Shown: positions 5,361-17,213 of the stretch, piece after piece
Layout of the letters: every line of letters begins with the position of its first letter
Position numbering within the stretch: position 1 is the first letter of the stretch
DNA from: Lysobacterales bacterium
GTDB taxonomy: Bacteria; Pseudomonadota; Gammaproteobacteria; Xanthomonadales; SZUA-36
Reading direction: 5' to 3'
Assembly (NCBI GenBank): GCA_013001885.1
Contig: JABDLD010000023.1
Coordinates: 1-64,000, forward strand
Length of the DNA stretch: 64,000 nucleotides
Notes under the pieces: generated by a model
Seen by the model: the letters and a program-made list of their open reading frames with translations, nothing else
The model's database searches: none
What the model was told of the DNA's origin: nothing
Position numbers and translations under genes: made by a program

Positions 5361-6620
5361 ATGCAGCTGTCTGTGTTTGGAACCAAATTTGCCGGAGATT
5401 CCGGTATCGTCGAACTGATGGACGACCTGGGAACCGCCCTGGTGGAGAATCCCGGAATGATCATGATGGGGGGAGGGAATCCGGGCCGTCTGCCTGAGGC
5501 GGAGGCGCTATTCCAAAAACGTCTGGAAGCGGTGCTCAGCGATCCCGAAAAACGCCACAGCCTGTTTGGGCTTTATCAATCGACTCAGGGCGACCTGGAT
5601 TTTCGGAAGGAATTGGCATCCTACCTGAGGAAGCAGTTCGGCTGGCGGCTTTCAGAACGGAATATTGCCATTTCCAACGGCAGCCAGCCGGCGTTCTTCG
5701 TGCTGCTGAACATGTTCGCGGGCGAGATGCCTGATGGCGGCCGGAGGTCTATCCACCTGCCGCTGACGCCCGAATATCTTGGCTATGCCGACAGCGGATT
5801 AAGCGAAGACTTTTTCACCGCGACCCGTCCCGAAATTGAGTTACTGGACGGCCATTTGTTCAAGTACCACGTGGACTTTTCCAGGCTGGATGTGGGAACC
5901 GGAGCCGGCGCGCTCTGTGTCTCACGGCCCACTAACCCTACGGGCAATGTATTGACCGATGAAGAGGTTGCCCACCTGGATGCATTGGCAAAAGAATGTG
6001 AAATTCCGTTTATTCTCGACGGCGCCTACGGTCTGCCGTTCCCGGGGATTATTTTTACTCGCGCAACGCCACATTGGAACGAGAACACCATACTGGTTCT
6101 GAGTCTTTCAAAGCTGGGCCTGCCGGGTGTGCGCACGGGTATCATCGTCGCACGGGAAGAAATCATTCGTGCCTATGCCAATGCAAACGGTATCGTCAAC
6201 CTGGCTTGCGGCAACATCGGGCCGGCAATCGCAACGGAATTATTCAGAAGTGGTGAAATCGGGGCGCTGACACGAAGCCATGTCGCGCCGTTCTATCATG
6301 ACCGGGCGACGAAGACGGTGGCCGCATTCCGGCAAGCCCTGGGCGATTTGCCGTATCGAATTCATAAACCGGAGGGCGCATTTTTTCTCTGGCTCTGGTT
6401 CGAAGGGTTGCCCATCAGCAGTCAGCGACTCTATCAGCGCCTGAAACGGCGCGGTGTCCTGGTCGTCCCGGGACACCATTGTTTTTTTGGTCTGCAGGAG
6501 GAGTGGCCGCATCGGCACGAGTGCCTGCGCATTTCCTACGTTCAATCCGAGGATCAGGTTCGGCGGGGTATCGCCATCATCGCTGACGAGGTCAGCAAAG
6601 CCTACGCGGGAGGTGCGTGA
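5361..6620 (+). CDS. avtA: Valine-pyruvate aminotransferase
   Basis: A 419-residue fold-type I PLP aminotransferase that converts 2-oxoisovalerate and alanine to valine and pyruvate. Typical AvtA features are the N-terminal LSVFGTKFAGDSGIVELMDD and MMGGGNPGRLPEAE, the GNV loop in SRPTNPTGNVLTDEE, FILDGAYGLPFPGI, and LSLSKLGLPGVRTGI with the PLP-binding lysine. GGGAAG lies five bases before the ATG. It ends only five bases before the convergent aldo/keto reductase gene. The symbol rests on strong whole-length resemblance. Confidence 0.93.
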   Translation: MQLSVFGTKFAGDSGIVELMDDLGTALVENPGMIMMGGGNPGRLPEAEALFQKRLEAVLSDPEKRHSLFGLYQSTQGDLDFRKELASYLRKQFGWRLSERNIAISNGSQPAFFVLLNMFAGEMPDGGRRSIHLPLTPEYLGYADSGLSEDFFTATRPEIELLDGHLFKYHVDFSRLDVGTGAGALCVSRPTNPTGNVLTDEEVAHLDALAKECEIPFILDGAYGLPFPGIIFTRATPHWNENTILVLSLSKLGLPGVRTGIIVAREEIIRAYANANGIVNLACGNIGPAIATELFRSGEIGALTRSHVAPFYHDRATKTVAAFRQALGDLPYRIHKPEGAFFLWLWFEGLPISSQRLYQRLKRRGVLVVPGHHCFFGLQEEWPHRHECLRISYVQSEDQVRRGIAIIADEVSKAYAGGA

Positions 6621-6625
6621 AGCGG

Positions 6626-7600
6626 TCAGTGAAAGTCGTTTGAAAACGAAGCCGGCAGGATGATCTCGTCGATCCGCGCCAGCTGGTCCTGGCTGATTTC
6701 GATTCCACTGGCGCCGCAGTTTTCCTCGATCTGTGCGGTACGTGTAGCCCCGGTTATGCAGGAAGTGACGTCCTCCTTGTGTAGAATCCACGCCAGCGCC
6801 AACTGCGCAATGCTGCACCCGACTTCCGAAGCGACGCTTTGTAACCGGGCAATGTGTTCCAGCACTTTTTCATTGGCCGCCAGTTCCTTGATCCACTGAT
6901 TCTGCCGCTCATCCGCCGCACGGCTGGTCGCCGGCAGGGGCCGGCCCGGTTGATATTTTCCGGTCAGCAGGCCCTGCTCCAGCGGTGAAAAAACGACCTG
7001 GCCGACGCCGTGCTGTCGGCAAACCGGGAGGACTTCAACCTCCAGGTCGCGCATCAGCATGTTGTAGTGCGGCTGGCTTGAAACGGGCGGGTACAGGCGC
7101 TCTCCGCAGATGTTGAAGGTCTTCTGGATTTTATCCGCCGGCCAGCAGGAAAATCCCCAGTAGAGGATTTTCCCCTGGTGCACGAGGTCGTCCATTGCGC
7201 GCAGGGTTTCCTCCAGCGGGGTTTCATCGTCGTATCGGTGACACTGGTACAAATCTATGTACTCGGTATCCAGGCGGCGCAGGCTGGCATCGCATTGCTC
7301 CATGATGTGTTTGCGCGACAAGCCGCGGTCGTTCGGGCCATCGCCCATCGGGAAATACACCTTGGTGGCCAGCACGTAAGAGGGGCGGCTGTAGCTGCCC
7401 AGCAACCGGCCCCACATTTTTTCGCAGGCGCCGGCCGCATAAACGTTGGACGTGTCGTAGAAATTGATGCCGCACTCGAAGGCTTTGTCGATCAGCTCCC
7501 GGCCAGTCTTTTCATTGGATACATGGCCAAAGGTAAGCCAGCCGCCCAGGCCGATTTCCGACAGCTTTACACCCGAATTTCCCAAACGCCGGTATTTCAT
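6626..7600 (-). CDS. Aldo/keto reductase, Kv-beta/YghZ type
   Basis: A 324-residue TIM-barrel NADPH-dependent oxidoreductase. Motifs follow the family order: MKYRRLGNSGVKLSEIGLGG, YDTSNVYAAG with the catalytic Tyr, ATKVYFP with the Lys, and LYQCHRYD with the His. The C-terminal cofactor-binding end has the SCITGATRTAQIEEN pattern. An in-frame ATG at 7618 would add six residues (MRAGKR); I prefer 7600 because family members start at MKYR. It converges on avtA. The substrate cannot be read from the sequence. Confidence 0.9.
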   Translation of the reverse strand: MKYRRLGNSGVKLSEIGLGGWLTFGHVSNEKTGRELIDKAFECGINFYDTSNVYAAGACEKMWGRLLGSYSRPSYVLATKVYFPMGDGPNDRGLSRKHIMEQCDASLRRLDTEYIDLYQCHRYDDETPLEETLRAMDDLVHQGKILYWGFSCWPADKIQKTFNICGERLYPPVSSQPHYNMLMRDLEVEVLPVCRQHGVGQVVFSPLEQGLLTGKYQPGRPLPATSRAADERQNQWIKELAANEKVLEHIARLQSVASEVGCSIAQLALAWILHKEDVTSCITGATRTAQIEENCGASGIEISQDQLARIDEIILPASFSNDFH

Positions 7601-7688
7601 CCGTTTTCCCGCCCGCATTGATGTTTGATTAAATCAGGATACCAAATGTGCTAGCGTGGGCGGATGGCTAATTGCGTGGAGATTGACT

Positions 7689-8084
7689 ATGCACCGTTCA
7701 ACATTGGCTATTGCCTTGTGTCTGCTCTGTGCCTCGCTGGTGGCAACCCTCAGCGGTTGCCGGAATGGACAGGAAAACGTGGCGCCTGAGAACCGATCAA
7801 GCGGTGATGAGAGCCTGGCCGCATTGGCAGTCAAGGACCTGGCGGGCCGGCTGAATATATCCGCCAAAGAGATAAGCGTATTGCGCGAAGTGAACGTGAC
7901 CTGGCGGGACGGCAGCCTTGGCTGTCCGCGAGAGGGCATGATGTATACACAGGCGCTGGTTGAGGGTTCGCTGATCGTTCTGCGTGCGGGAAATGATCAA
8001 TATCAATACCATTCGGGAAAAGGGCGCCCGCCGTTTTATTGCGAGAATCCGGTCAAGCCGATGTCTAAGTCTTCCGCGGAATAA
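7689..8084 (+). CDS. Small lipoprotein with a conserved SLGCP/YTQ domain
   Basis: A 131-residue protein with a lipobox (TLSGC) after a short hydrophobic signal. The mature part carries a compact pattern, TWRDGSLGCPREGMMYTQ, then GSLIVLRAG, YQYHSGKG and FYCENP. I recognise this pattern from small uncharacterised secreted proteins in several bacterial groups but know no function. The conserved Cys in SLGCP and the late Cys in FYCEN could pair. The start at 7689 is chosen because the signal peptide then begins normally. Its last 20 bases overlap the 3' end of the convergent DUF349 gene. Confidence 0.72.
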   Translation: MHRSTLAIALCLLCASLVATLSGCRNGQENVAPENRSSGDESLAALAVKDLAGRLNISAKEISVLREVNVTWRDGSLGCPREGMMYTQALVEGSLIVLRAGNDQYQYHSGKGRPPFYCENPVKPMSKSSAE

Positions 8085-10704
8085 TCTTTCCTTCGCAAAA
8101 AAAACGTTCCAGCCAAGGGGCCTCCGGGCGCATGGCGACGAACGCATTGATCTGCTCAATCAGCAGTTGTTCGGTGTCGCCGTGCTGGCTTCCGATACCT
8201 TCCAGGAGCCGCTCCATCTGATAGGCCATTCGGGCTTCCTTGTCCTGGGGCGGGGAATCTGCGCCAACCAGCACCTCCATCGCGATACAGGCTTTCCTGG
8301 CGTCTTCCTCCGGCAGATTTTCATCCGGACCATTCTCCCAGTAGGCCAGCACCGCTTCTTTCTCGACCCCCTTCGGAACATCGCCTTCCTTTTGCCATAG
8401 CGCGGTGGCTTTTTCTTCATCCTCGGCCCGGGTTGCACAGGCCCGGAGCCGGTCCAGCAGATCGGGCCAGCGTTGCTGCTCTTTCAGCGCCCGCTCGCGG
8501 ACTTGCTCAGCACGGGCCTTTGCCGCGGCGGTCCGCTCGTTCCTCGCGACATCCTGCTGTTTACGCTCCTCATCCAACCTGGCGAAAACGGCGTCACAGG
8601 CGCCCCGGAATGCTTTCCACAGCTTCCGATCGACCTGCCTGGGCGTCATACCGACGTTCTTCCATTCACGCTGGATGCCTTTTGCACGGTCGATCGCATC
8701 TCTCAGGTTCTCCAGTTCAACCAGTTCCTGTGCCTGGCGCACGAGTTCCTTTTTCAGCGCAATGTTGCGTTCATATTCATCCTTGATGTGGTCGTATATC
8801 TTGTTGCAAACGGCTTGCAGCGCTTTGCGGCTCTTGTGCTCCCCTTTTCCGCTCACCGGCTGGATTTCGTTGAAGGCGGCCCGGGCGGTGTCCAGCGTTT
8901 TCTGGACCATTTTCCAGTCCGGCGCCGCGGTGTCCGGGTCGGTGCCGGCCCGGTCCGGCCAGGCCATGCGCTGATCGTAGTCGATTAGCTGGGAAACCAG
9001 CTCCATCCGCCGCTTGAGGTTTTCTTTGCGGACTACAGCCTGTTGTTTGAACGCTTCTTTGCATGGCGCATAGGCCTGTTCCGCGGCCGCATGGAATTTC
9101 TTCCAGAGCTCCTGGTCCTTTCGCGGAGAGAGCGGCCCTAGTGCTTTCCACTCCTCCTGCAGGGACTTTATTCTTTTCGCCAGAACATCGGGCGGCTCCG
9201 GGCTGTCAATCAACGCGGCCATGCGCTCGCACAGCTCTATTTTTTTCGGTTCGATGGCGAAGCCCTGCCAGTCGTGAACCTCTCTCAGCCTGGCCGTCAG
9301 GGGTCTCAGTTCGTGATGAAAATGGTCCTGCTGTTTGACACTCAAATGCCTGAGCAGGTTTCTCACCCGGTTGTGCGCCTTGTCAGCGTTTCTAAAATGG
9401 TTGTCTTCCAGTTCCCGGCGCAAATCGGTAAACGCGGTTTCCAGTTTTTCAAGAGTCTTCTTCTCTGCCTTTTTAAGCTCCGAGAGTGTTTGCTGCAATT
9501 GATGCTGCAGGTCCACCAGCTTGAGGATCGGGGCCGGGGTTGCTTCACTGACGGTTTCGGGCCACGGCGTCTTTACGATCTGCTTATCGACTCTGGCGAG
9601 TAGTTTGCTGACGGCGATGTAATCCGATTTGTCCAATCGCGGGAGGTCTTCGTGCAATTTTTCGAAAGCTGCGCTCTTGTCCAATACGCGCTTTGACGCT
9701 TGTGCGATGGTCCGCCAGTGGTTGAGCTGATGCTTGCAGGTTTGAGTCTGATCCGCAGTTGGCCGGGCGTGGTGCATTGCAGCCAGCCAGCGATCCTCAA
9801 TTCCATCCAGGTTTTTTGCGAACTGCCGAACGGACTTCGGCTGACTCAGGTCCAGGCCGGCAAACTCGATTGACTCCAGCTCGGAAAGCAGTTCCCGGAA
9901 GGTCTGCTCTGAGGCCTCGATTTCATCTTGCCGCGCCTGTTCGGCTTCGTGCGCCCGGTCCAGCTTTTCGATGCGTTTCGAACAGATTTCGAGATCGTCA
10001 TTGATCTGTTTTTCAAATTCCGAATCGGCATGTTCCTGCAGCGCTGACCAGCGATGTTCGAGCGTCGTGAAGCGGGCCTTGAATTCCGGTGAGTCAACGC
10101 TGGTGCTCAGCTGGCGTACATCTTCAGCGAGTTGCTGGATACGCTGCTGCCGCTCGCTTTTTTTCCGCTCTGCTGCATTGTGCTGGTCGACAATTTCTTT
10201 GCAGTGGCGAAAGACCGATTTGTCCTTGTGTTTCGACAGGTGCATCAGCTCTTTAAGCAAGTCGATATCTTCAATTCCCTGGGCTGCATTCAGACGAACC
10301 CTGGCCAGCGGGTGGCTACCTGCCAACTCCATCCGGGTCTGTGTGCTCCGGACCTTCGAGATCGACGCGGAAATCAGCTCCGGGTCATTACTCAGGCTGG
10401 CGATGCGAACCAGCACCGAGTCGTCAGAAATAGACGACAGCTTGCTCTCATCAGGCAGCAGTTGTTTCAGGCGTTGGGCCCTGGCCTGGTTTTGCAGAGG
10501 GGGTGACAGACTCTCGCAAAGCTCATCGAGCAGTTTGCTGCTGGCCACGCGGGCAAGGGCTTGAGCCTGAATCTCAGCCTCCGGGTCTTCCCTAACCAGC
10601 TGCAGCAGAATACTTTCATCATCGATTTCATCGATTGCGGCCAGGCGCACCTCTGGCTTCTTGCTTTGCCATCCGGGTTTGGATAAAGAGTCGAACAATG
10701 TCAT
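8065..10704 (-). CDS. Large coiled-coil protein with DUF349 repeats
   Basis: About 879 residues, cytoplasmic, without signal or membrane segment. The first 170 residues look like degenerate HEAT-type helical repeats (IDEIDDESILLQLVRED, SDDSVLVRIASLSNDPEL). Charged coiled-coil then alternates with DUF349 units, best seen in LQEEWKALGPLSPRKDQELWKKF and IQREWKNVGMTPRQVDRKLWKAF. DUF349 proteins are common in gammaproteobacteria and poorly characterised. A GTG at 10722 gives six more residues; I prefer ATG 10704, which has AGGTAA upstream. It diverges from the thioesterase gene and its 3' end overlaps the small lipoprotein gene. Confidence 0.87.
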   Translation of the reverse strand: MTLFDSLSKPGWQSKKPEVRLAAIDEIDDESILLQLVREDPEAEIQAQALARVASSKLLDELCESLSPPLQNQARAQRLKQLLPDESKLSSISDDSVLVRIASLSNDPELISASISKVRSTQTRMELAGSHPLARVRLNAAQGIEDIDLLKELMHLSKHKDKSVFRHCKEIVDQHNAAERKKSERQQRIQQLAEDVRQLSTSVDSPEFKARFTTLEHRWSALQEHADSEFEKQINDDLEICSKRIEKLDRAHEAEQARQDEIEASEQTFRELLSELESIEFAGLDLSQPKSVRQFAKNLDGIEDRWLAAMHHARPTADQTQTCKHQLNHWRTIAQASKRVLDKSAAFEKLHEDLPRLDKSDYIAVSKLLARVDKQIVKTPWPETVSEATPAPILKLVDLQHQLQQTLSELKKAEKKTLEKLETAFTDLRRELEDNHFRNADKAHNRVRNLLRHLSVKQQDHFHHELRPLTARLREVHDWQGFAIEPKKIELCERMAALIDSPEPPDVLAKRIKSLQEEWKALGPLSPRKDQELWKKFHAAAEQAYAPCKEAFKQQAVVRKENLKRRMELVSQLIDYDQRMAWPDRAGTDPDTAAPDWKMVQKTLDTARAAFNEIQPVSGKGEHKSRKALQAVCNKIYDHIKDEYERNIALKKELVRQAQELVELENLRDAIDRAKGIQREWKNVGMTPRQVDRKLWKAFRGACDAVFARLDEERKQQDVARNERTAAAKARAEQVRERALKEQQRWPDLLDRLRACATRAEDEEKATALWQKEGDVPKGVEKEAVLAYWENGPDENLPEEDARKACIAMEVLVGADSPPQDKEARMAYQMERLLEGIGSQHGDTEQLLIEQINAFVAMRPEAPWLERFFCEGKIIPRKT

Positions 10705-10776
10705 TTTACTGATTACCTGCACTTGATGCCGGGCCCATAGTGAATTCTACTATGAGCCAGCCAGTCGGGGGTTAAT

Positions 10777-11193
10777 ATGACGATAAGCACTTTTTATGAC
10801 TTTCCGCACATCGTCGCTGCGGAAGATATCGATCAGCTCGGGCACGCGGGAAATTTCCACTACATAAAGTGGATGCAGCATGCGGCTATCGCGCATTCCA
10901 CGGCCAATGGCTGGCCGACGGAGCGGTACGAAACACTCGGTGCCGGCTGGGTCGTCCGTTCACACCAGATAACTTATCTGAAACCCGCATTCGAGGGTGA
11001 TGAAGTGTTGATCAGGACATGGGTGGCGAGTGCGAGGCCGGCCCTGTCGGTGCGAAAATATGAAATCAAACACGCCGACGGGACACTGCTGGCAACAGCC
11101 GAGACTGAATGGGTGTTCGTCAATTACAAGACCCAGCGGCCGGTGCGCATACCTCCCGAGGTGGCCAGTTGTTTCAAGCTGCTGGAAGAATAG
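10777..11193 (+). CDS. Acyl-CoA/acyl-ACP thioesterase, 4HBT hotdog family
   Basis: A 138-residue single hotdog-domain protein. FYDFPHIVAAEDIDQLGHAGNFHYIKWM carries the family pattern (Asp-x-x-x-His-x-Asn-x-x-Tyr), followed by VRSHQITYLKPAFEGDEVLIRTW and a late WVFVNYKTQRPVRIP strand. It hydrolyses thioesters of CoA or ACP in the cytoplasm. It converges on the lpxXL-like gene with only seven bases between them, so it borders the acyl-chain cluster on the opposite strand. A link to that cluster is possible but not shown. Confidence 0.85.
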   Translation: MTISTFYDFPHIVAAEDIDQLGHAGNFHYIKWMQHAAIAHSTANGWPTERYETLGAGWVVRSHQITYLKPAFEGDEVLIRTWVASARPALSVRKYEIKHADGTLLATAETEWVFVNYKTQRPVRIPPEVASCFKLLEE

Positions 11194-11200
11194 CCGCCCC

Positions 11201-12112
11201 CTAACCCCAGCGACGATGAATCCACAGCCATTGTTCGGGGTATTCCCTGACCCAGCCTTCAACGACCCGGGTGATCAGCTCGGTTGTGCCCCGGATGTCG
11301 ATGTCGCCCTCTCCGGTTCGAGGCAGACTGAGTTCGTCAGTCACTTCCAGCCGGAAACGGCCGTTGGGAAGGCGGATGGAGCGGGCGCCGTGAACCGGGC
11401 AATTGTATCGTCTGGCGAGTTTTGCCAGCAGGGTGTTGGTGGGCGCGCTCTGCCCGAAAAACGACACTTCGATGCCACGGCGGAACTTCTGGTCCACCAG
11501 CACACCCACGTGATCACCCTTCTCCAGCGCTCTCATCAATTGGAACGAGGCGCCCCGGCCGGATGCAACCAGGTTGCCGGAGACCTGTTTTCGCGCGGCC
11601 GCAATTCTCGCGGCTGCGTACTTGTTGTTAGGGGCACGAAACAGCGATTGAATTTCAAGCCCGAATTTCGCCGCAGCCATCGGCAATAATTCAAAATTGC
11701 CCAGGTGTCCCGTGAATATGATGGCCGGCAAGTCGTCGTCGCGCAGTTTCAGAAAGTTTTCTACCCCTTTTACTTCGATGCGTCCGGCGTCCAGGTTGTT
11801 TTCATCCAGGTCGAATACCTGGTCCAGGTAACCGTATTCCGCGATGCCGCGCGCCATTTGCGCCCAGCTGTCGAGAGCGATTTTTTCGCGTTCAGCAGTG
11901 CTTTTCTCCGGAAAGGCAATCGCCAGGTTGTCCATGGCTACCCGGTGGCGGCCCAGTTTGGGGCCAAGCCAGCGCGCCATCCGCTCAAATAGCCGGATCG
12001 ACGTATCCATCGGAACCATGCGCAGGGCCTTGAGCGACAGGAACAGGGTCTGGGCTACCAGCCAATCGCGAAGATTGAAAACAGACTGCAGAAACCGCTG
12101 GCGCCCGTTCAT
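11201..12112 (-). CDS. lpxXL: LpxL/LpxXL-type lipid A acyltransferase
   Basis: A 303-residue inner-membrane acyltransferase of the LpxL/HtrB family, which transfers an acyl chain from ACP to lipid A precursor. The catalytic block is FTGHLGNFELLP, the family His-x4-Glu motif. Later motifs are FRAPNNKYAAARI, VGVLVDQKFRRGIEVSFFGQ and WLWIHRRW at the end. One hydrophobic segment lies near the N-terminus. The ATG at 12112 comes one base after the stop of the dehydrogenase gene; a longer frame starting inside that gene is rejected. As the last gene of the cluster it occupies the lpxXL position, which in rhizobia transfers the 27-hydroxyoctacosanoate chain. The exact acyl donor is inferred from context. 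Confidence 0.85.
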   Translation of the reverse strand: MNGRQRFLQSVFNLRDWLVAQTLFLSLKALRMVPMDTSIRLFERMARWLGPKLGRHRVAMDNLAIAFPEKSTAEREKIALDSWAQMARGIAEYGYLDQVFDLDENNLDAGRIEVKGVENFLKLRDDDLPAIIFTGHLGNFELLPMAAAKFGLEIQSLFRAPNNKYAAARIAAARKQVSGNLVASGRGASFQLMRALEKGDHVGVLVDQKFRRGIEVSFFGQSAPTNTLLAKLARRYNCPVHGARSIRLPNGRFRLEVTDELSLPRTGEGDIDIRGTTELITRVVEGWVREYPEQWLWIHRRWG

Positions 12113-12113
12113 T

Positions 12114-13139
12114 CTAGAGCGTGACGATGATCTTGCCGAACACCTTTCGATTTTCCAGCCGTTCCAGCCCTTTTTCGATCTCCTCCAGCGGGATTTCAAG
12201 ATCGATAATTGGCTTCACGACACCGGCGGACAGCTTCTCTAACGAGCTTTCAATGTTCGCCATTCTGCAGCCAAAACTACCGATCAGCCTCAATTGTCGC
12301 TGAAAAAGCTGAAACAGGTTGATTTCAGCCTTGACCCCGGACGTTGAGCCGCAGGTCACCAGCCGTCCGCCGACCTTCATTGAAAAGAGGCTGCCTTCCC
12401 AGGTATCCGGTCCGACGTGTTCGAAAACGACGTCGACGCCCTCCTTTTTAGTCAGTTTGCGGATCTTTCCCTCGAACCGGTCGGTCTGGTAATTGATCGC
12501 GTGATCAGCGCCAAGCGCAAGCGCCTGCTGGGCTTTTTCATCGGTCCCCACGGTGGTGTAGACCGTGCAATCGAGCGCTTTGGCCAACTGGATGGCTGCG
12601 GTTCCAATACCGCTGCCTCCGGCGTGGACCAGGATACTTTCGCCGGGTTGAAGCTTCGCGTTGTCAAACAGCATGTGCTCCACCGTGCCGAACGTAATGG
12701 GGGTGCATGCAGCCGAAACGGGATCCAGCCCTTTGGGGGCAGGAACGAACAGGCGCGCGGGGAAGTTCATGATTTCCTGGGCGAAACCATCTATGTGAAA
12801 GCCAAAGATACCGTTTACGTTTTCACAGAAATTGTCGCGGCCTTCCAGGCAGGGCTTGCAGGTGCCGCAGGTATTCGCGCCGTAAAGCGCTCCCAGTTGG
12901 CCGACCTCGAGGTCCTTGACGTTTTTGCCGGTCGCGATGATCTCTCCTGAAGCCTCTGCACCCACGGTGATGGGCAGCTCGCGCTTGGCAAACGCCATCC
13001 CGCGCCAACCCCATACGTCGATGTGGTTCAGGGCGACAGCGCAGATTCTCACCTGTATTTCATCGTCTCCCGGGGGAGGCGGGGCGTCGACTTCAACGAT
13101 CCGCAGATCGCGCTCGGCAAAATTTCTAAGTGCACGCAT
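12114..13139 (-). CDS. Zinc-type medium-chain dehydrogenase/reductase (Adh2XL-like)
   Basis: A 341-residue MDR protein. The N-terminal catalytic domain has GAEASGEIIATG and the structural-zinc loop CGTCKPCLEGRDNFC. The Rossmann domain has VHAGGSGIGTAAIQLAKALD. It could reduce an enoyl or oxidise/reduce an oxo/hydroxy group on the growing acyl chain. In the rhizobial acpXL cluster an alcohol-dehydrogenase gene, adh2XL, occupies the same place before lpxXL. Ten bases separate it from the ketoreductase gene upstream and one base from lpxXL downstream, so co-transcription is near certain. The symbol is left blank because orthology is inferred from position. Confidence 0.87.
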   Translation of the reverse strand: MRALRNFAERDLRIVEVDAPPPPGDDEIQVRICAVALNHIDVWGWRGMAFAKRELPITVGAEASGEIIATGKNVKDLEVGQLGALYGANTCGTCKPCLEGRDNFCENVNGIFGFHIDGFAQEIMNFPARLFVPAPKGLDPVSAACTPITFGTVEHMLFDNAKLQPGESILVHAGGSGIGTAAIQLAKALDCTVYTTVGTDEKAQQALALGADHAINYQTDRFEGKIRKLTKKEGVDVVFEHVGPDTWEGSLFSMKVGGRLVTCGSTSGVKAEINLFQLFQRQLRLIGSFGCRMANIESSLEKLSAGVVKPIIDLEIPLEEIEKGLERLENRKVFGKIIVTL

Positions 13140-13149
13140 GGTTCAACCT

Positions 13150-13917
13150 TCAGACTTGTATCGACAGGCCGGCTGAAGTGCCGCCGTCAATCGGGATAAC
13201 AGCACCGGTGATATAACCCGCCAGTGGCGAAAACAGGTAGCTTACCAGGGCGCCCACTTCTTCGGGCTGGGCAAAGCGCCTTAGCGGAATCTGTTGTTCG
13301 ACTTTCTCGCGGTAAGAGGCATACGGCGCCATCAGGTCGGTGTCCACGTACCCCGGAGAAACGTAGTTTGCCGTGACCCCTTTGCGCGCGATTTCTATGG
13401 CCAGCGTCCTGATGTAACTCAGCATCGCGCCCTTGCTCGCGGCATAGATCGAGTTGCCGGACACGCCCATTTGAGCGGTGATGGAGCCGATGGCGATAAT
13501 GCGTCCCGCCCGGGCGCGCATCAGCGGCCTGGCGGCGGCGCCGGCAAGGCGGGTCAATGCCCAGAAATTAAGCTGGAAAAGGGCCTCGGCGCGATCCTGA
13601 TCCACCAGCGCGGCCAGAGTGTCGTAGGAACCGCCCGCGTTGTAAGCCAGCCCGTACAGTCCTTCGGTTTCTGCGATCTGGCCGGCAAATGTGTCCACCT
13701 GGCCGCGGTCGCTCATATCGACCTCGTGGCAATCGATGGTTTGTTCCGGGTAGTTGGCCTGCAGTTCGTCTCTTACCCGGGCGGCCTCATCACCCGATGA
13801 GCGGTAAGTGAAGGAAATATTGTAACCGTCCGCTGCCAACGCTTTGACAATGCCAAGGCCGATACCCCGGGCGCCGCCTGTGACGAAAACGGTCTTTCCT
13901 TTTGCGGCATGAGTCAC
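13150..13917 (-). CDS. Short-chain dehydrogenase, FabG-like 3-oxoacyl-ACP reductase
   Basis: A 255-residue classical SDR. VTGGARGIGLGIVKAL is the cofactor-binding loop and NAGG follows near residue 90. IIAIGSITAQMG and YAASKGAMLSYIRTLA give the catalytic Ser, Tyr and Lys, and the C-terminus has GYITGAVIPIDGG. It most likely reduces 3-oxoacyl-ACP to the 3-hydroxy form in the elongation cycle driven by the neighbouring ketosynthase. Only 9-10 bases separate it from each neighbour. I do not remember this gene from the core rhizobial acpXL-lpxXL cluster, so it appears to be an added module. Confidence 0.88.
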   Translation of the reverse strand: MTHAAKGKTVFVTGGARGIGLGIVKALAADGYNISFTYRSSGDEAARVRDELQANYPEQTIDCHEVDMSDRGQVDTFAGQIAETEGLYGLAYNAGGSYDTLAALVDQDRAEALFQLNFWALTRLAGAAARPLMRARAGRIIAIGSITAQMGVSGNSIYAASKGAMLSYIRTLAIEIARKGVTANYVSPGYVDTDLMAPYASYREKVEQQIPLRRFAQPEEVGALVSYLFSPLAGYITGAVIPIDGGTSAGLSIQV

Positions 13918-13926
13918 TGCAGGCTC

Positions 13927-15210
13927 CTAGTCCGGTTCGGCCGAAAAAATCAGGCAAACGTTCTGGCCGCCGAAACCAAAAGAATTGGACATTACCGTGC
14001 TGACCGGCTGTTCTCGCTTCACGTTCGGTACCACATCCATCAGGATATTCGGATCCTGCTCATGACAGTTGATGGTCGGTGGAATCACGCCGTTGCTGAT
14101 CGTCATCAACGATATGGCGGCTTCGATAGTCCCCGCGGCGCTCAAGGTATGGCCAATCATGGATTTGTTGGAACTGATGGGCGTGTTGTCCAGTTCACTG
14201 CCCAGTGCCGCAGACAAGGCGAGATATTCCATTTTGTCGTTCTCGGGCGTACTGGTGCCGTGCGCATTGATGCAATCAATGTCCGCTGGCGACATTCCAG
14301 CATCTGCCAGCGAGCGCGTGATCGTATCGATAATGGCCGATCCGTCCGGCTTGGATCGGGTCCGATGAAAAGTGTCGGCCCGCTCACCGGTGCCGCGCAC
14401 CACGCCCAGGATTTTCGCTCCGCGGGCCTTGGCGGAATCATAAGACTCCAGCACCAGCGTGGCAGAACCCTCGGCCATGACGAAACCGTCCCGTGTCTTG
14501 GAGAATGGCTTGGAAGCGCCTTGCGGATCGTCATTCTGGGTGGAGAGAGCGGACAGCAGCGTGAACCGCACGACCATTTCCTCACAAATCTCTCCATCGG
14601 TTCCAACACAAAGAGCGGCGTCGGTATCGCCGCGCCGAATGGCTTCAACACCCAACTGCACCGAGGTCGCTCCGGAGGCGCAGGCGGTGGTCAAGGAAAT
14701 GGGCTGGCCGCGAGTGCCGAATTCGCCGGCCAGGAATTCCGCGGTGCTGCCGTACTGAAAGAGAGAATAGTAATGATGAAAGTCGCCTTGTGAGGCATTC
14801 CGGATCAGGCGTTCATAGCCGGTGCTGTTGTCGCTGTTGTCGCTTTTATAGACATCCATGCGCTGATCCCACTTTGTTTCTGCGGGGGAAATGGCAAGGA
14901 ACAGCGGACCTGGGAAAGACCCTTGCGAACCTATTTTCGACTGTGCGATTGCCTCCGAGGCGGATTTTCGCGCCAATGTAAGCGAATGGACAGGTGAGCA
15001 ATAGGGCCCGTCGCCCTGCCAGTCGATCAGGCCGGCAATTTGCGTGCGCAGGCCTTCGGTTGAAAAGCGGTCAATTTGACGAACGCCGGAGATGCCAGCT
15101 ACCAGGTTCCGCCAATTGTCCTGCTTGCCTTCACCCAGAGACGTAACAATGCCGATACCGGTAACGACGACGACCGGGCGCCCCAGGTGGTCGCGAGTTG
15201 CATGGCTCAT
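13927..15210 (-). CDS. fabF1XL: Beta-ketoacyl-ACP synthase II, catalytically complete (FabF1XL-like)
   Basis: A 427-residue FabF-type condensing enzyme. The triad is intact: Cys177 in TTACASG, His317 in NAHGTSTPEND and His354 in NKSMIGHTLSAAG with Lys349. The C-terminal SNSFGFGGQN loop is normal. It would catalyse decarboxylative condensation of malonyl-ACP with acyl-ACP. The ATG at 15210 forms an ATGA overlap with the stop of the second ketosynthase gene, so the two are translationally coupled, as expected for a KS pair acting as a heterodimer. The name follows its place in the acpXL cluster. Confidence 0.9.
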   Translation of the reverse strand: MSHATRDHLGRPVVVVTGIGIVTSLGEGKQDNWRNLVAGISGVRQIDRFSTEGLRTQIAGLIDWQGDGPYCSPVHSLTLARKSASEAIAQSKIGSQGSFPGPLFLAISPAETKWDQRMDVYKSDNSDNSTGYERLIRNASQGDFHHYYSLFQYGSTAEFLAGEFGTRGQPISLTTACASGATSVQLGVEAIRRGDTDAALCVGTDGEICEEMVVRFTLLSALSTQNDDPQGASKPFSKTRDGFVMAEGSATLVLESYDSAKARGAKILGVVRGTGERADTFHRTRSKPDGSAIIDTITRSLADAGMSPADIDCINAHGTSTPENDKMEYLALSAALGSELDNTPISSNKSMIGHTLSAAGTIEAAISLMTISNGVIPPTINCHEQDPNILMDVVPNVKREQPVSTVMSNSFGFGGQNVCLIFSAEPD

Positions 15211-16451
15211 GAGCGTGTTCCTCCCCGCAGTGAAACGCCGGGTTTGCCAATCAGCGCCAGGCTTTCGCCTCGCCAATGGCCCCAATTACTGATCAGGACC
15301 TGATCCGGCCGATCGGCAAACACCTGCTCTGTTCCGGAACTGTCAAAAGGATCGAAAAATGCCCCTCTTGATATCGCCAGAGATGCCAGCGCAACGTTAA
15401 CCGGAAACTGGGCCTCCATCGTGTTGCCGATGACGGTAGTCACTCCGCGGATGGCCGGACTGACGCCGCGGCTTGTGAGGCTTTCCAGGAATTCATGTTC
15501 TTCACCCAGCTGGGGCTGAATGCCGCAACAGCCGGATATGACCGGCAACGGGCCCGAGGGAAGCTGGTCGGCTATTCGCTCCAGTAATTTATCTGCGGTC
15601 TTGCGGGCTGCTCCCGCGTGCCGGTTGCAACGATCCGCAACGATCCGGTCAATTCTTGCATAGGGCTTTACGCCGCGCGATTCGGCGTGTTCTCTTGACT
15701 CGAGCACCAGGAAGGCGCTCGCGCTGCCCATGATCATGCCGCCGTCGCCGCTTTCGCGCGACCAGACCGGGGAGTGCTCTCCCTGGTGGAGCGTGTTGCC
15801 CATGGCCATCAGCATGGTCATGTCCGCGCGTTCAGCAATGTAGGCTCCGCCCACCAGAAAAATCTCGCCCTGGCCGTGCTGGATTTGCGCAACCGCTGTA
15901 TCAACCGCCATAACGCCAGCCAGTTCATCACCCATGAAAGTTCTTGAAGAATCGGTGACTCCATGCACGATGGAAATATTTCCTGCCATCAGGTTCGAAA
16001 GCTGGGCCAGGAACAACGTGGGGCGCAGATTGTTCATCAGGGAATCGTTCAGCAGCGGACCCGGCTCATCGGCAGTGCTGAGCAATTCCATGATTGCCGT
16101 ATCGACCTCGATGTCCCGTTCACCACCGCCGGCGGAGACGATCATGTTGGTCGCAGCCAGCAACGCCTCGTTGTGGGCGATTCCTGCGTCATCCAGCGCC
16201 AGTCCTGCAGTATAAGTGCCCAGGTGTTGCCAGGGCCCCATCTGGCGCTGATCACTGCGTTTGGGAATCTGAGAGTCTATTTCCAGCGCGACGATTGGAT
16301 GCACCGGGTAGGGTGCCTGGCTGTCGGAATCGACCGAAGGAACAGGTGTCTTCCCGGAAGTCAGCTGCGCCCAATGCTTATCGAGGCCTTCTCCCAGCGA
16401 ACTGATCAGTCCGATCCCGGTCACCCAAACTTCTGATTGTTTTTTGGTCAA
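15207..16451 (-). CDS. fabF2XL: Second ketosynthase homologue lacking the catalytic triad (FabF2XL-like, chain-length-factor-like)
   Basis: A 414-residue protein with the ketosynthase fold (WVTGIGLISSLGEG at the start, FLVGGAYIAERAD and MGSASAFLVLESREHAESRG in the middle). The catalytic residues are absent. The TAC-x-SG nucleophile region reads SIVHGVTDSSR with no Cys, the NAHGTS region reads ISGCCGIQP with no His, and the KS-x-x-GH region reads TTVIGNTMEAQ with neither Lys nor His. This is the pattern of KS-beta/chain-length factors, which pair with an active KS. Coupling to the active ketosynthase by ATGA supports a heterodimer. It occupies the fabF2XL position. I do not recall whether rhizobial FabF2XL keeps the triad. 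Confidence 0.85.
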   Translation of the reverse strand: MTKKQSEVWVTGIGLISSLGEGLDKHWAQLTSGKTPVPSVDSDSQAPYPVHPIVALEIDSQIPKRSDQRQMGPWQHLGTYTAGLALDDAGIAHNEALLAATNMIVSAGGGERDIEVDTAIMELLSTADEPGPLLNDSLMNNLRPTLFLAQLSNLMAGNISIVHGVTDSSRTFMGDELAGVMAVDTAVAQIQHGQGEIFLVGGAYIAERADMTMLMAMGNTLHQGEHSPVWSRESGDGGMIMGSASAFLVLESREHAESRGVKPYARIDRIVADRCNRHAGAARKTADKLLERIADQLPSGPLPVISGCCGIQPQLGEEHEFLESLTSRGVSPAIRGVTTVIGNTMEAQFPVNVALASLAISRGAFFDPFDSSGTEQVFADRPDQVLISNWGHWRGESLALIGKPGVSLRGGTRS

Positions 16452-16455
16452 TTTC

Positions 16456-16917
16456 TTACTCTGCCTGTGAACGGCTTATCTGGCTGAAGCGATCCAGCAT
16501 GTTGCCCTTTAGTGTTTCATTCGGAAACGGCATGATCCGGAACATCAGCCGGCTGTCGCATATCTTTTTTCCGTCACTCACGATATGAGCGGCGGTTTTT
16601 GCAAAACCGGAGCCGTCATGTTCAAGCTCCGCTTCGACACGGAGAACGGCGCCCGGTTCAACGAAAGTCCGCATCTTGGCCAGAGTGACGTTGGCCAGAA
16701 ACGGCATTTTCTCAAATTTGAGCCGGGACAGAAGCATGAAACCGGAGGCCTGGGCCATGGTTTCGATCAGAAGCACGCCGGGAACCAGCGGAGTGCCGGG
16801 AAAATGCCCCTCGAACACCGGGCTTTCCATCGGCACTTCCGCCCGTGCGACAACGCGCCCATTTTCCGGGTCAAGCTCCTCGACACGGTCGATCATCTGG
16901 AAATACTCAAGGAGCAT
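16456..16917 (-). CDS. fabZXL: FabZ-like 3-hydroxyacyl-ACP dehydratase
   Basis: A 153-residue single hotdog dehydratase. MLLEYFQMIDRVEELDPENG matches the FabZ N-terminus. GHFPGTPLVPGVLLIETMAQ carries the catalytic His and the Glu on the central helix. It removes water from 3-hydroxyacyl-ACP. It lies 14 bases after the ACP gene and four bases before the inactive ketosynthase gene. The position equals fabZXL in the rhizobial cluster. Confidence 0.9.
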   Translation of the reverse strand: MLLEYFQMIDRVEELDPENGRVVARAEVPMESPVFEGHFPGTPLVPGVLLIETMAQASGFMLLSRLKFEKMPFLANVTLAKMRTFVEPGAVLRVEAELEHDGSGFAKTAAHIVSDGKKICDSRLMFRIMPFPNETLKGNMLDRFSQISRSQAE

Positions 16918-16931
16918 GTCTTTTCTTCAGG

Positions 16932-17213
16932 TCAGGCGTCTTTGGCGGCGATGACTTCGTCAATTCTCGCGCAGAGCTTGCTCAGAACAAAATACTCGTC
17001 GACCTGGGCCGGGTTTTCATTCAATTCTTCCGTCCACTGCTCCAACGGAATTTTTATCCCGAAATGCTTGTCGATCGCGAAAGCAATATCCAGAAAATCC
17101 AGGCTATCGATGCCAAGATCAGTGAATGCATTTTTTTCCGGCGTAATTTCCTCCAGCGGGATATCACTGGTCTCGGAGATTATTTCTGCAACAGCTTCGA
17201 AAGTCGTCGTCAT
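16932..17213 (-). CDS. acpXL: AcpXL-type specialised acyl carrier protein
   Basis: A 93-residue ACP, longer than the house-keeping form. [18 protein letters not shown] carries the phosphopantetheine attachment Ser37. The following [16 protein letters not shown] and [15 protein letters not shown] segments closely resemble, from memory, the diagnostic C-terminal half of rhizobial AcpXL, the carrier for the very-long-chain 27-hydroxy fatty acid of lipid A. It is the first gene of a seven-gene minus-strand operon ending at lpxXL. Recognition rests on remembered family sequence, not on a search. Confidence 0.92.

Follow-up and report, generated by a model that had tools for sequence, protein, structure and literature searches.

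The locus described here raises the question of whether a gammaproteobacterium carries a complete acpXL-lpxXL cluster and, if so, what the cluster would make and from where it was obtained. The window analysed was a stretch of 64,000 nt from Lysobacterales bacterium GCA_013001885.1 (contig JABDLD010000023.1, positions 1-64,000, forward strand). The host is an uncultured gammaproteobacterium of Lysobacterales type, in keeping with the gammaproteobacterial lineage proposed in an earlier note on this DNA. In gene content, family membership and gene order, the locus is a complete acpXL-lpxXL cluster; very probably, it encodes a dedicated type II synthase for lipid A and was obtained from an alphaproteobacterium by transfer.

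Seven packed minus-strand open reading frames, all of them open, run from position 17213 to 11201, with acpXL first and lpxXL last (Table 1). The coordinates give gaps of 14 bases between the ACP and FabZ genes, 4 between FabZ and FabF2XL, 9 between FabF1XL and the SDR, 10 between the SDR and the dehydrogenase, and 1 before lpxXL, while the two ketosynthase-type genes overlap by 4 bases (15207-15210); this agrees with the earlier description of seven minus-strand genes that overlap or are separated by 1-14 bases. RNA genes were searched for in the window and none was found.

Table 1. Genes of the acpXL-lpxXL cluster and its flank in the window (NCBIfam matches are given in bits as score/curated cut-off)
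Gene	Product	Position	Strand	Basis
acpXL	AcpXL-type acyl carrier protein, 93 aa, DSLDF site	16932..17213	-	NF005079 142.5/83; 2kw2; motif
fabZXL	3-hydroxyacyl-ACP dehydratase, 153 aa	16456..16917	-	PF07977; S. meliloti homology; position
fabF2XL	ketosynthase homologue, 414 aa, without catalytic Cys/His/Lys	15207..16451	-	NF005084 519.6/320
fabF1XL	catalytic ketosynthase, 427 aa	13927..15210	-	NF005076 663/629; C/H/K/H kept
SDR	FabG-like SDR, 255 aa, proposed dedicated ketoreductase	13150..13917	-	PF13561; YxxxK motif; position
adh2XL	MDR-family dehydrogenase, 341 aa, proposed enoyl reductase	12114..13139	-	PF00107/PF08240; S. meliloti homology
lpxXL	lipid A acyltransferase, 303 aa from ATG, HX4E motif	11201..12112	-	NF005120 422.9/273
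thioesterase	flanking 4HBT-type thioesterase, convergent; pathway membership only a possibility	10777..11193	+	PF13279
DUF349	flanking DUF349 protein; marks host side of junction	8065..10722	-	PF03993

The gene order cannot be put down to chance, because the same families occur in the same order, without the SDR, on pSymB of S. meliloti, and the order including the SDR (52% identical) recurs in Methylobacterium bullatum (NZ_LR743510); the rhizobial order recognised earlier is thus colinear with both. Identities to the S. meliloti Ak57 pSymB proteins were 66% for the ACP, 69% for FabZ (over 131 aa), 46% for FabF2XL, 55% for FabF1XL, 64% for the dehydrogenase and 52% for LpxXL. Compared with the clusters of S. 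meliloti and Agrobacterium fabrum, which make 28:0-27OH lipid A, the window has the SDR between FabF1XL and the dehydrogenase, its gaps are shorter, the second active-site His is missing too from its FabF2XL, and its host is gammaproteobacterial. The SDR had been regarded as an extra reductase, but it occupies the same place in 12 of the 23 alphaproteobacterial loci gathered; it is a regular member of many such clusters and is ruled out as a peculiarity of the host organism. We propose for it the role of a dedicated ketoreductase, although S. meliloti and A. fabrum manage without it.

Four of the seven proteins (the ACP, FabF2XL, FabF1XL and LpxXL) exceeded NCBIfam curated cut-offs for rhizobial families, and AcpXL, the FabF1XL/FabF2XL pair and LpxXL were assigned at that level. 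The FabZ, SDR and dehydrogenase matched general families only, under their NCBIfam cut-offs, and reached no pathway-specific model; FabZXL and Adh2XL were assigned by the S. meliloti homology and position only. Against PDB, the ACP aligned over residues 1-93, its full length, with 2kw2, a solved 'specialized acyl carrier protein' (E 5e-37); the 2kw2 variant 8f5i followed (E 5.7e-31), with the next ACPs at 3.1e-9 or weaker. This match and the NF005079 cut-off bear out the AcpXL typing of the earlier note, which had proposed such a profile and homology comparison, and rule out an aryl-polyene ACP or an ordinary AcpP. Features of an aryl-polyene cluster (APE-type ACPs and a half-size ApeC-type chain-length factor, CLF) did not emerge at the locus, its ACP being AcpXL by cut-off. 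The last gene, an LpxL-family acyltransferase in the earlier note, is a lipid A acyltransferase both by family score and by the HX4E motif.

The two ketosynthase-type proteins differ in their active sites. The C/H/K/H residues of FabF1XL were kept in all 30 homologues scored, whereas in FabF2XL the catalytic Cys was replaced by Glu in 30/30; FabF2XL is therefore probably not a working ketosynthase. A Ketoacyl-synt_C domain match was not found in FabF2XL, and its single-chain model, built from a four-row alignment, was set aside at a mean pLDDT of 37.9. A catalytic ketosynthase adjacent to a homologue without the catalytic Cys is the arrangement of KS-CLF heterodimers, in type II PKS as in the aryl-polyene ApeO-ApeC. 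On balance, we lean towards FabF2XL being a chain-length factor, which would pair with FabF1XL in a heterodimer whose tunnel sets a C26-C30 length. The likeness has its limits: the CLFs of type II PKS have Gln at the Cys position, where FabF2XL has Glu. ApeC retains just one thiolase-fold domain (PMC8358021), whereas FabF2XL is full length at 414 aa.

We infer each reaction, the KS-CLF pairing, chain length, hydroxylation, attachment site and expression; the pathway would be a type II fatty-acid synthase devoted to lipid A, onto which its product is loaded. The growing chain would sit on AcpXL and be extended by C2 units through FabF1XL together with the presumably inactive FabF2XL; the SDR would reduce the ketone, FabZXL would dehydrate, the MDR dehydrogenase would reduce the enoyl group, and LpxXL would hand the finished chain, of the C26-C30 class, from AcpXL over to the precursor of lipid A. 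The host makes lipid A, since its genome contains LpxC and a second LpxL-like acyltransferase. Mutants described in two papers fit these roles: lipid A of A. fabrum fabF2XL and adhA2XL mutants is without very-long-chain acids (PMC11901934), and an S. meliloti acpXL mutant is missing all of them (PMC5539429). A bolder idea is that, because the core cluster is without a hydroxylase, a 3-hydroxybutyryl primer and not late oxidation may be the source of the (omega-1)-hydroxyl. In G004 and G006, genes for a fatty-acid hydroxylase, a desaturase and a GNAT protein are found within the cluster or next to it, and a hydroxylase homologue is present in the window's genome at 48% identity (G000 C24). This hydroxylase may be linked to the pathway, but as a dedicated enzyme of it was set aside: it has homologues in 6 of 41 relatives, including G001 and G019, where no acpXL was found, and none was found in the cluster-bearing G003 (G035 lay outside that search).

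Among the readings that compete with this pathway, one takes FabF2XL for another ketosynthase acting on its own, or for a KSQ-like malonyl decarboxylase, and not for a chain-length factor. Papers annotate it as a 3-oxoacyl-ACP synthase, the second His is retained in 23 of 30 homologues, and decarboxylating KSQ domains have Gln or Glu at the Cys position; against this, the Cys, the first His and the Lys are each retained in 0/30, and all six copies of the host family have lost the second His as well, so that we hold this reading to be unlikely, though a real contender. The same enzymes could also make another product: a specialised long acyl or polyketide chain not destined for lipid A, or one of normal length. 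Both the SDR and the divergence of FabF2XL might shift the outcome, and the neighbourhood varies between relatives, some copies lying next to genes for a phosphopantetheinyl transferase, a desaturase or a hydroxylase. Nevertheless, no known partner is missing from the cluster, and its last gene belongs to the curated family of very-long-chain acyltransferases acting on lipid A, which makes a different product rather improbable and the loading of a very long chain onto lipid A the preferred reading.

As to origin, the earlier note had left open transfer or an old, under-reported distribution. The cluster occurs in 6 of 37 genomes of the host family, and in the cluster tree the six gammaproteobacterial copies form one clade (100/100) among alphaproteobacterial copies, with alphaproteobacterial G1313 as sister (100/100) and Rhizobiaceae-type copies joining next; the Methylobacterium cluster is not the nearest kin. 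The nesting recurs in a FabF1XL tree with FabF as root, in which one long row (G1295) stands beside the outgroup. For the cluster tree, 12 clusters were fetched from the 34 non-own genomes with a match (22 left out); from a second set of 14 genomes 8 were added, 2 were already in and 4 were left out, as were 4 of 7 named plasmid records and the ADH and LpxXL of G053. The G1313 copy lies on a 6.5-kb contig of a draft MAG, for which mis-binning is possible. With the copies of the family in a single clade inside the alphaproteobacterial ones, horizontal transfer from an alphaproteobacterium is the apparent source of the cluster, which would have been kept since; of the two origins, gene phylogeny thus lends transfer the better support and disfavours old distribution. 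A vertically inherited gammaproteobacterial trait, lost almost everywhere, would suit the presence of the cluster in three genera of one family (FabF2XL 72-74% identical between genera) and its fully adapted composition, in which no sign of transfer was seen (GC 0.575 for the cluster and 0.574 for the window; the ACP gene alone is lower, 0.479). Yet the AcpXL cut-off was passed by just 1 of 369 genomes class-wide, the host itself, and FabF2XL is carried by 7 of 398 genomes of the order; with the strongly supported nesting, this leaves vertical descent very improbable.

An alphaproteobacterial fragment misassembled or misbinned into a gammaproteobacterial MAG is a thought prompted by the draft MAG status of all family members with the cluster and by G053, another genome of the order, whose copy has alpha-like surroundings. 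It is extremely improbable for the window: the cluster is found in six independent family genomes as a clade of its own, matches the host contig in GC, and runs into a block (DUF349 gene and thioesterase) common to the window, G002, G003 and G004, while in G003 the cluster lies elsewhere; flanking genes common within the genus argue against contamination. The thioesterase also occurs, without this block, in G018 and G020, and both it and the cluster are missing from G001, a member of the genus. G053 was not counted as a second gammaproteobacterial acquisition: its copy falls inside a Rhizobiaceae-type branch, its ADH and LpxXL are split, and the neighbouring HemN stands nearer to alphaproteobacterial proteins (55, 47 and 46% identity to three, with no match in a fourth) than to gammaproteobacterial ones (37-42% for the best copies). 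A tree holding all seven gammaproteobacterial rows together was rejected (AU p 2.5e-52).

The apparent acquisition from an alphaproteobacterium places the cluster in a class where very-long-chain lipid A is not new in itself. Legionella lipid A carries 28:0(27-oxo) and 28:0(27-OH) acids, in passages that name no biosynthetic genes (PMC7867332); apart from the host, the class sample held no AcpXL above cut-off. Very-long-chain lipid A may thus contribute to the stability of the envelope in general and not to a life within host cells, and the absence of an intact FabF2XL active site from each of the 30 copies examined offers a testable answer to how a chain of about 28 carbons is measured.

The cluster comprises seven minus-strand genes lying 1-14 bases apart or overlapping by 4 bases, in agreement with the tight packing that the earlier note had described. 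Four products exceeded the curated NCBIfam cut-offs for families of the rhizobial acpXL-lpxXL cluster: the acyl carrier protein (ACP, NF005079), the two ketosynthase homologues FabF2XL (NF005084) and FabF1XL (NF005076), and the acyltransferase LpxXL (NF005120). FabZ, the FabG-like reductase (SDR) and the Adh2XL-like dehydrogenase were recognised at the general-family level only. The ACP, which carries a DSLDF site, aligns along its entire length with the solved structure 2kw2, a "specialized acyl carrier protein", so that its assignment to the AcpXL type held, as did that of the last gene to the LpxL family.

The proposed rhizobial gene order was borne out by comparison with Sinorhizobium meliloti Ak57 pSymB (ACP, dehydratase, two ketosynthases, dehydrogenase, acyltransferase), which is colinear apart from the SDR; identities were 66% (ACP), 69% (FabZ, over 131 residues), 46% (FabF2XL), 55% (FabF1XL), 64% (dehydrogenase) and 52% (LpxXL). 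Thirty clusters were compared, namely that of the window, six others from the host's class and 23 from alphaproteobacteria. The SDR was extracted from 18 of them: the window, five others of the host's class (not G053, from another family of the order) and 12 of the 23 alphaproteobacterial clusters. Methylobacterium bullatum has the window's order with the SDR between FabF1XL and the dehydrogenase. The "extra reductase" is thus present, but it is not unusual. In SDR-less rhizobia, ketoreduction is presumably performed by the housekeeping FabG. LpxXL lies upstream of the ACP, not at the cluster end, in G1296, G1141, G1192 and G1295, and was not found in four alphaproteobacterial stretches (G785, G1171, G1242, G1341). 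The window cluster is a genuine and complete example of an already known system; what is unexpected is the lineage. The surprise is limited by the precedent of Legionella, a gammaproteobacterium for which very-long-chain lipid A is described in the accessible text of PMC7867332; a review, in the portion available, states after Ardissone 2011 that the cluster is present in all bacteria making such lipid A (PMC5613085).

The host draft genome (3.3 Mb) is 97.9% complete, and the window forms the initial 64,000 bases of its contig C65. Related clusters occur in three Lysobacterales MAGs, which match G002, G004 and G006. AcpXL passed its cut-off in 6 of 61 genomes of a search among relatives and in 1 of 369 genomes drawn class-wide, the host itself. 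FabF2XL (E 1e-30) was detected in 7/398 genomes of the host's order, in 35/398 of a phylum sample (the other 34 all outside the host's class) and in 14/289 of the class of G785, taken as Alphaproteobacteria because it includes G782, whose cluster adjoins that of M. bullatum (branch lengths ~0.02). Within the host family (37 genomes, G000-G036) AcpXL passed in five; a sixth, G006, whose contig begins within the FabF2XL gene, was detected via FabF2XL. Neither protein was found in the congeneric G001 (82% complete). In families f52 and f40 of the Gammaproteobacteria (L012, L013, L014) the best-scoring ACPs, under the AcpXL cut-off, each have both a ketosynthase-like ORF and a protein of ~300 aa as neighbours, possibly another long-chain pathway.

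Contamination as the source of the cluster was rejected, since the window's flanking genes recur in G002 (aldo/keto-reductase-like, lipoprotein, DUF349, thioesterase), in the congeneric G003 (transaminase, lipoprotein, DUF349 and thioesterase, adjacent to one another) and in G004 (DUF349 and thioesterase, then lpxXL two genes on); the flank is therefore native to the lineage. The G003 contig with this block has no acpXL cluster, which lies on a different contig, and G018 and G020 of the host family have the thioesterase without the block. The position of the cluster varies within the genus.

Transfer, one option of the earlier note, gained support from the trees. In the concatenated tree (six proteins, 30 rows, 1713 columns, midpoint root) the six host-family copies form one clade (100/100), with an alphaproteobacterial draft MAG, G1313 (6.5-kb contig), as sister (100/100); both stand beside Rhizobiaceae-type copies (99/99), the remaining alphaproteobacterial copies lying further out. 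With four FabF-type sequences as outgroup, the FabF1XL tree gives a concordant picture (host-family clade plus G1313, 99/92), with one long row, G1295, adjoining the outgroup. As the GC content of the cluster equals that of the window, transfer into the main clade was probably not recent. G053 is counted as a separate or doubtful case because its cluster is placed next to S. meliloti, the adjoining HemN is closer to alphaproteobacterial HemNs, and its dehydrogenase and acyltransferase each read as two pieces; the region is either a large transfer or a chimeric assembly.

Coordinates of the window cluster and of related loci
Feature	Stretch	Positions	Remark
acpXL-lpxXL cluster	window	17213-11201 (-)	seven genes
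G053 acpXL region	L070	1-19901	rhizobial type, hemN upstream; 4.3-Mb contig placed in host's order
Hydroxylase, desaturase, GNAT genes, G004	L073	5354-9082	within or beside cluster
Hydroxylase, desaturase, GNAT genes, G006	L075	5114-9159	within or beside cluster
Phosphopantetheinyl transferase, G035	L071	5739-6497	PF01648
Phosphopantetheinyl transferase, G006	L075	4300-5082	PF01648
Third ACP and serine palmitoyltransferase, host	L117 (G000 C33)	6473-7939	NF047599
fabF2XL-fabF1XL pair, Bradyrhizobium plasmid	L091	8001-10513	adjacent genes

Together the seven genes would provide a carrier and the enzymes of a full elongation cycle, from condensation through ketoreduction and dehydration to enoyl reduction, as well as the transfer to lipid A; LpxC and an additional LpxL-like acyltransferase of the ordinary type are also encoded in the host genome. 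The core cluster holds no hydroxylase, and hypothetically an (omega-1)-hydroxyl could derive from a 3-hydroxybutyryl primer, which would need none. At the G004 and G006 loci the hydroxylase and desaturase are fatty-acid enzymes, and G004 has a cyclopropane-synthase-like gene as well. The phosphopantetheinyl transferase adjoining the cluster in G035 and G006, perhaps a dedicated AcpXL activator, has no counterpart beside the window cluster. Elsewhere in the host, a third ACP directly precedes a serine palmitoyltransferase (597.5 vs 500 bits); a 607-aa ORF lying upstream is a candidate acyl-ACP synthetase gene, and this is likely a sphingolipid locus.

All 30 FabF2XL homologues, S. meliloti included, have Glu in place of the catalytic Cys and lack both the first His and the Lys; the second His is kept in 23/30 and is Asn or Ser in the six host-family copies. 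The domain search gave no match of FabF2XL to the C-terminal ketosynthase model. FabF1XL retains all four catalytic residues in 30/30. According to the accessible text of PMC11901934, fabF2XL mutants of Agrobacterium fabrum make lipid A without very-long-chain acids. Since FabF2XL appears dead yet indispensable beside a live FabF1XL, the two would fit a ketosynthase paired with a chain-length factor. A conjugative-type Bradyrhizobium plasmid carries the pair, and the 8 kb to each side of it gave no match to any of the five remaining window proteins, an isolation that fits both acting as a unit. Literature using the name fabF2XL calls its product a 3-oxoacyl- or beta-ketoacyl-ACP synthase, and "chain length factor" occurs nowhere in the accessible literature naming fabF2XL or fabF1XL, in which older work is little covered. 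Reading FabF2XL as a putative chain-length factor would offer a new, testable view of one part of a known system.
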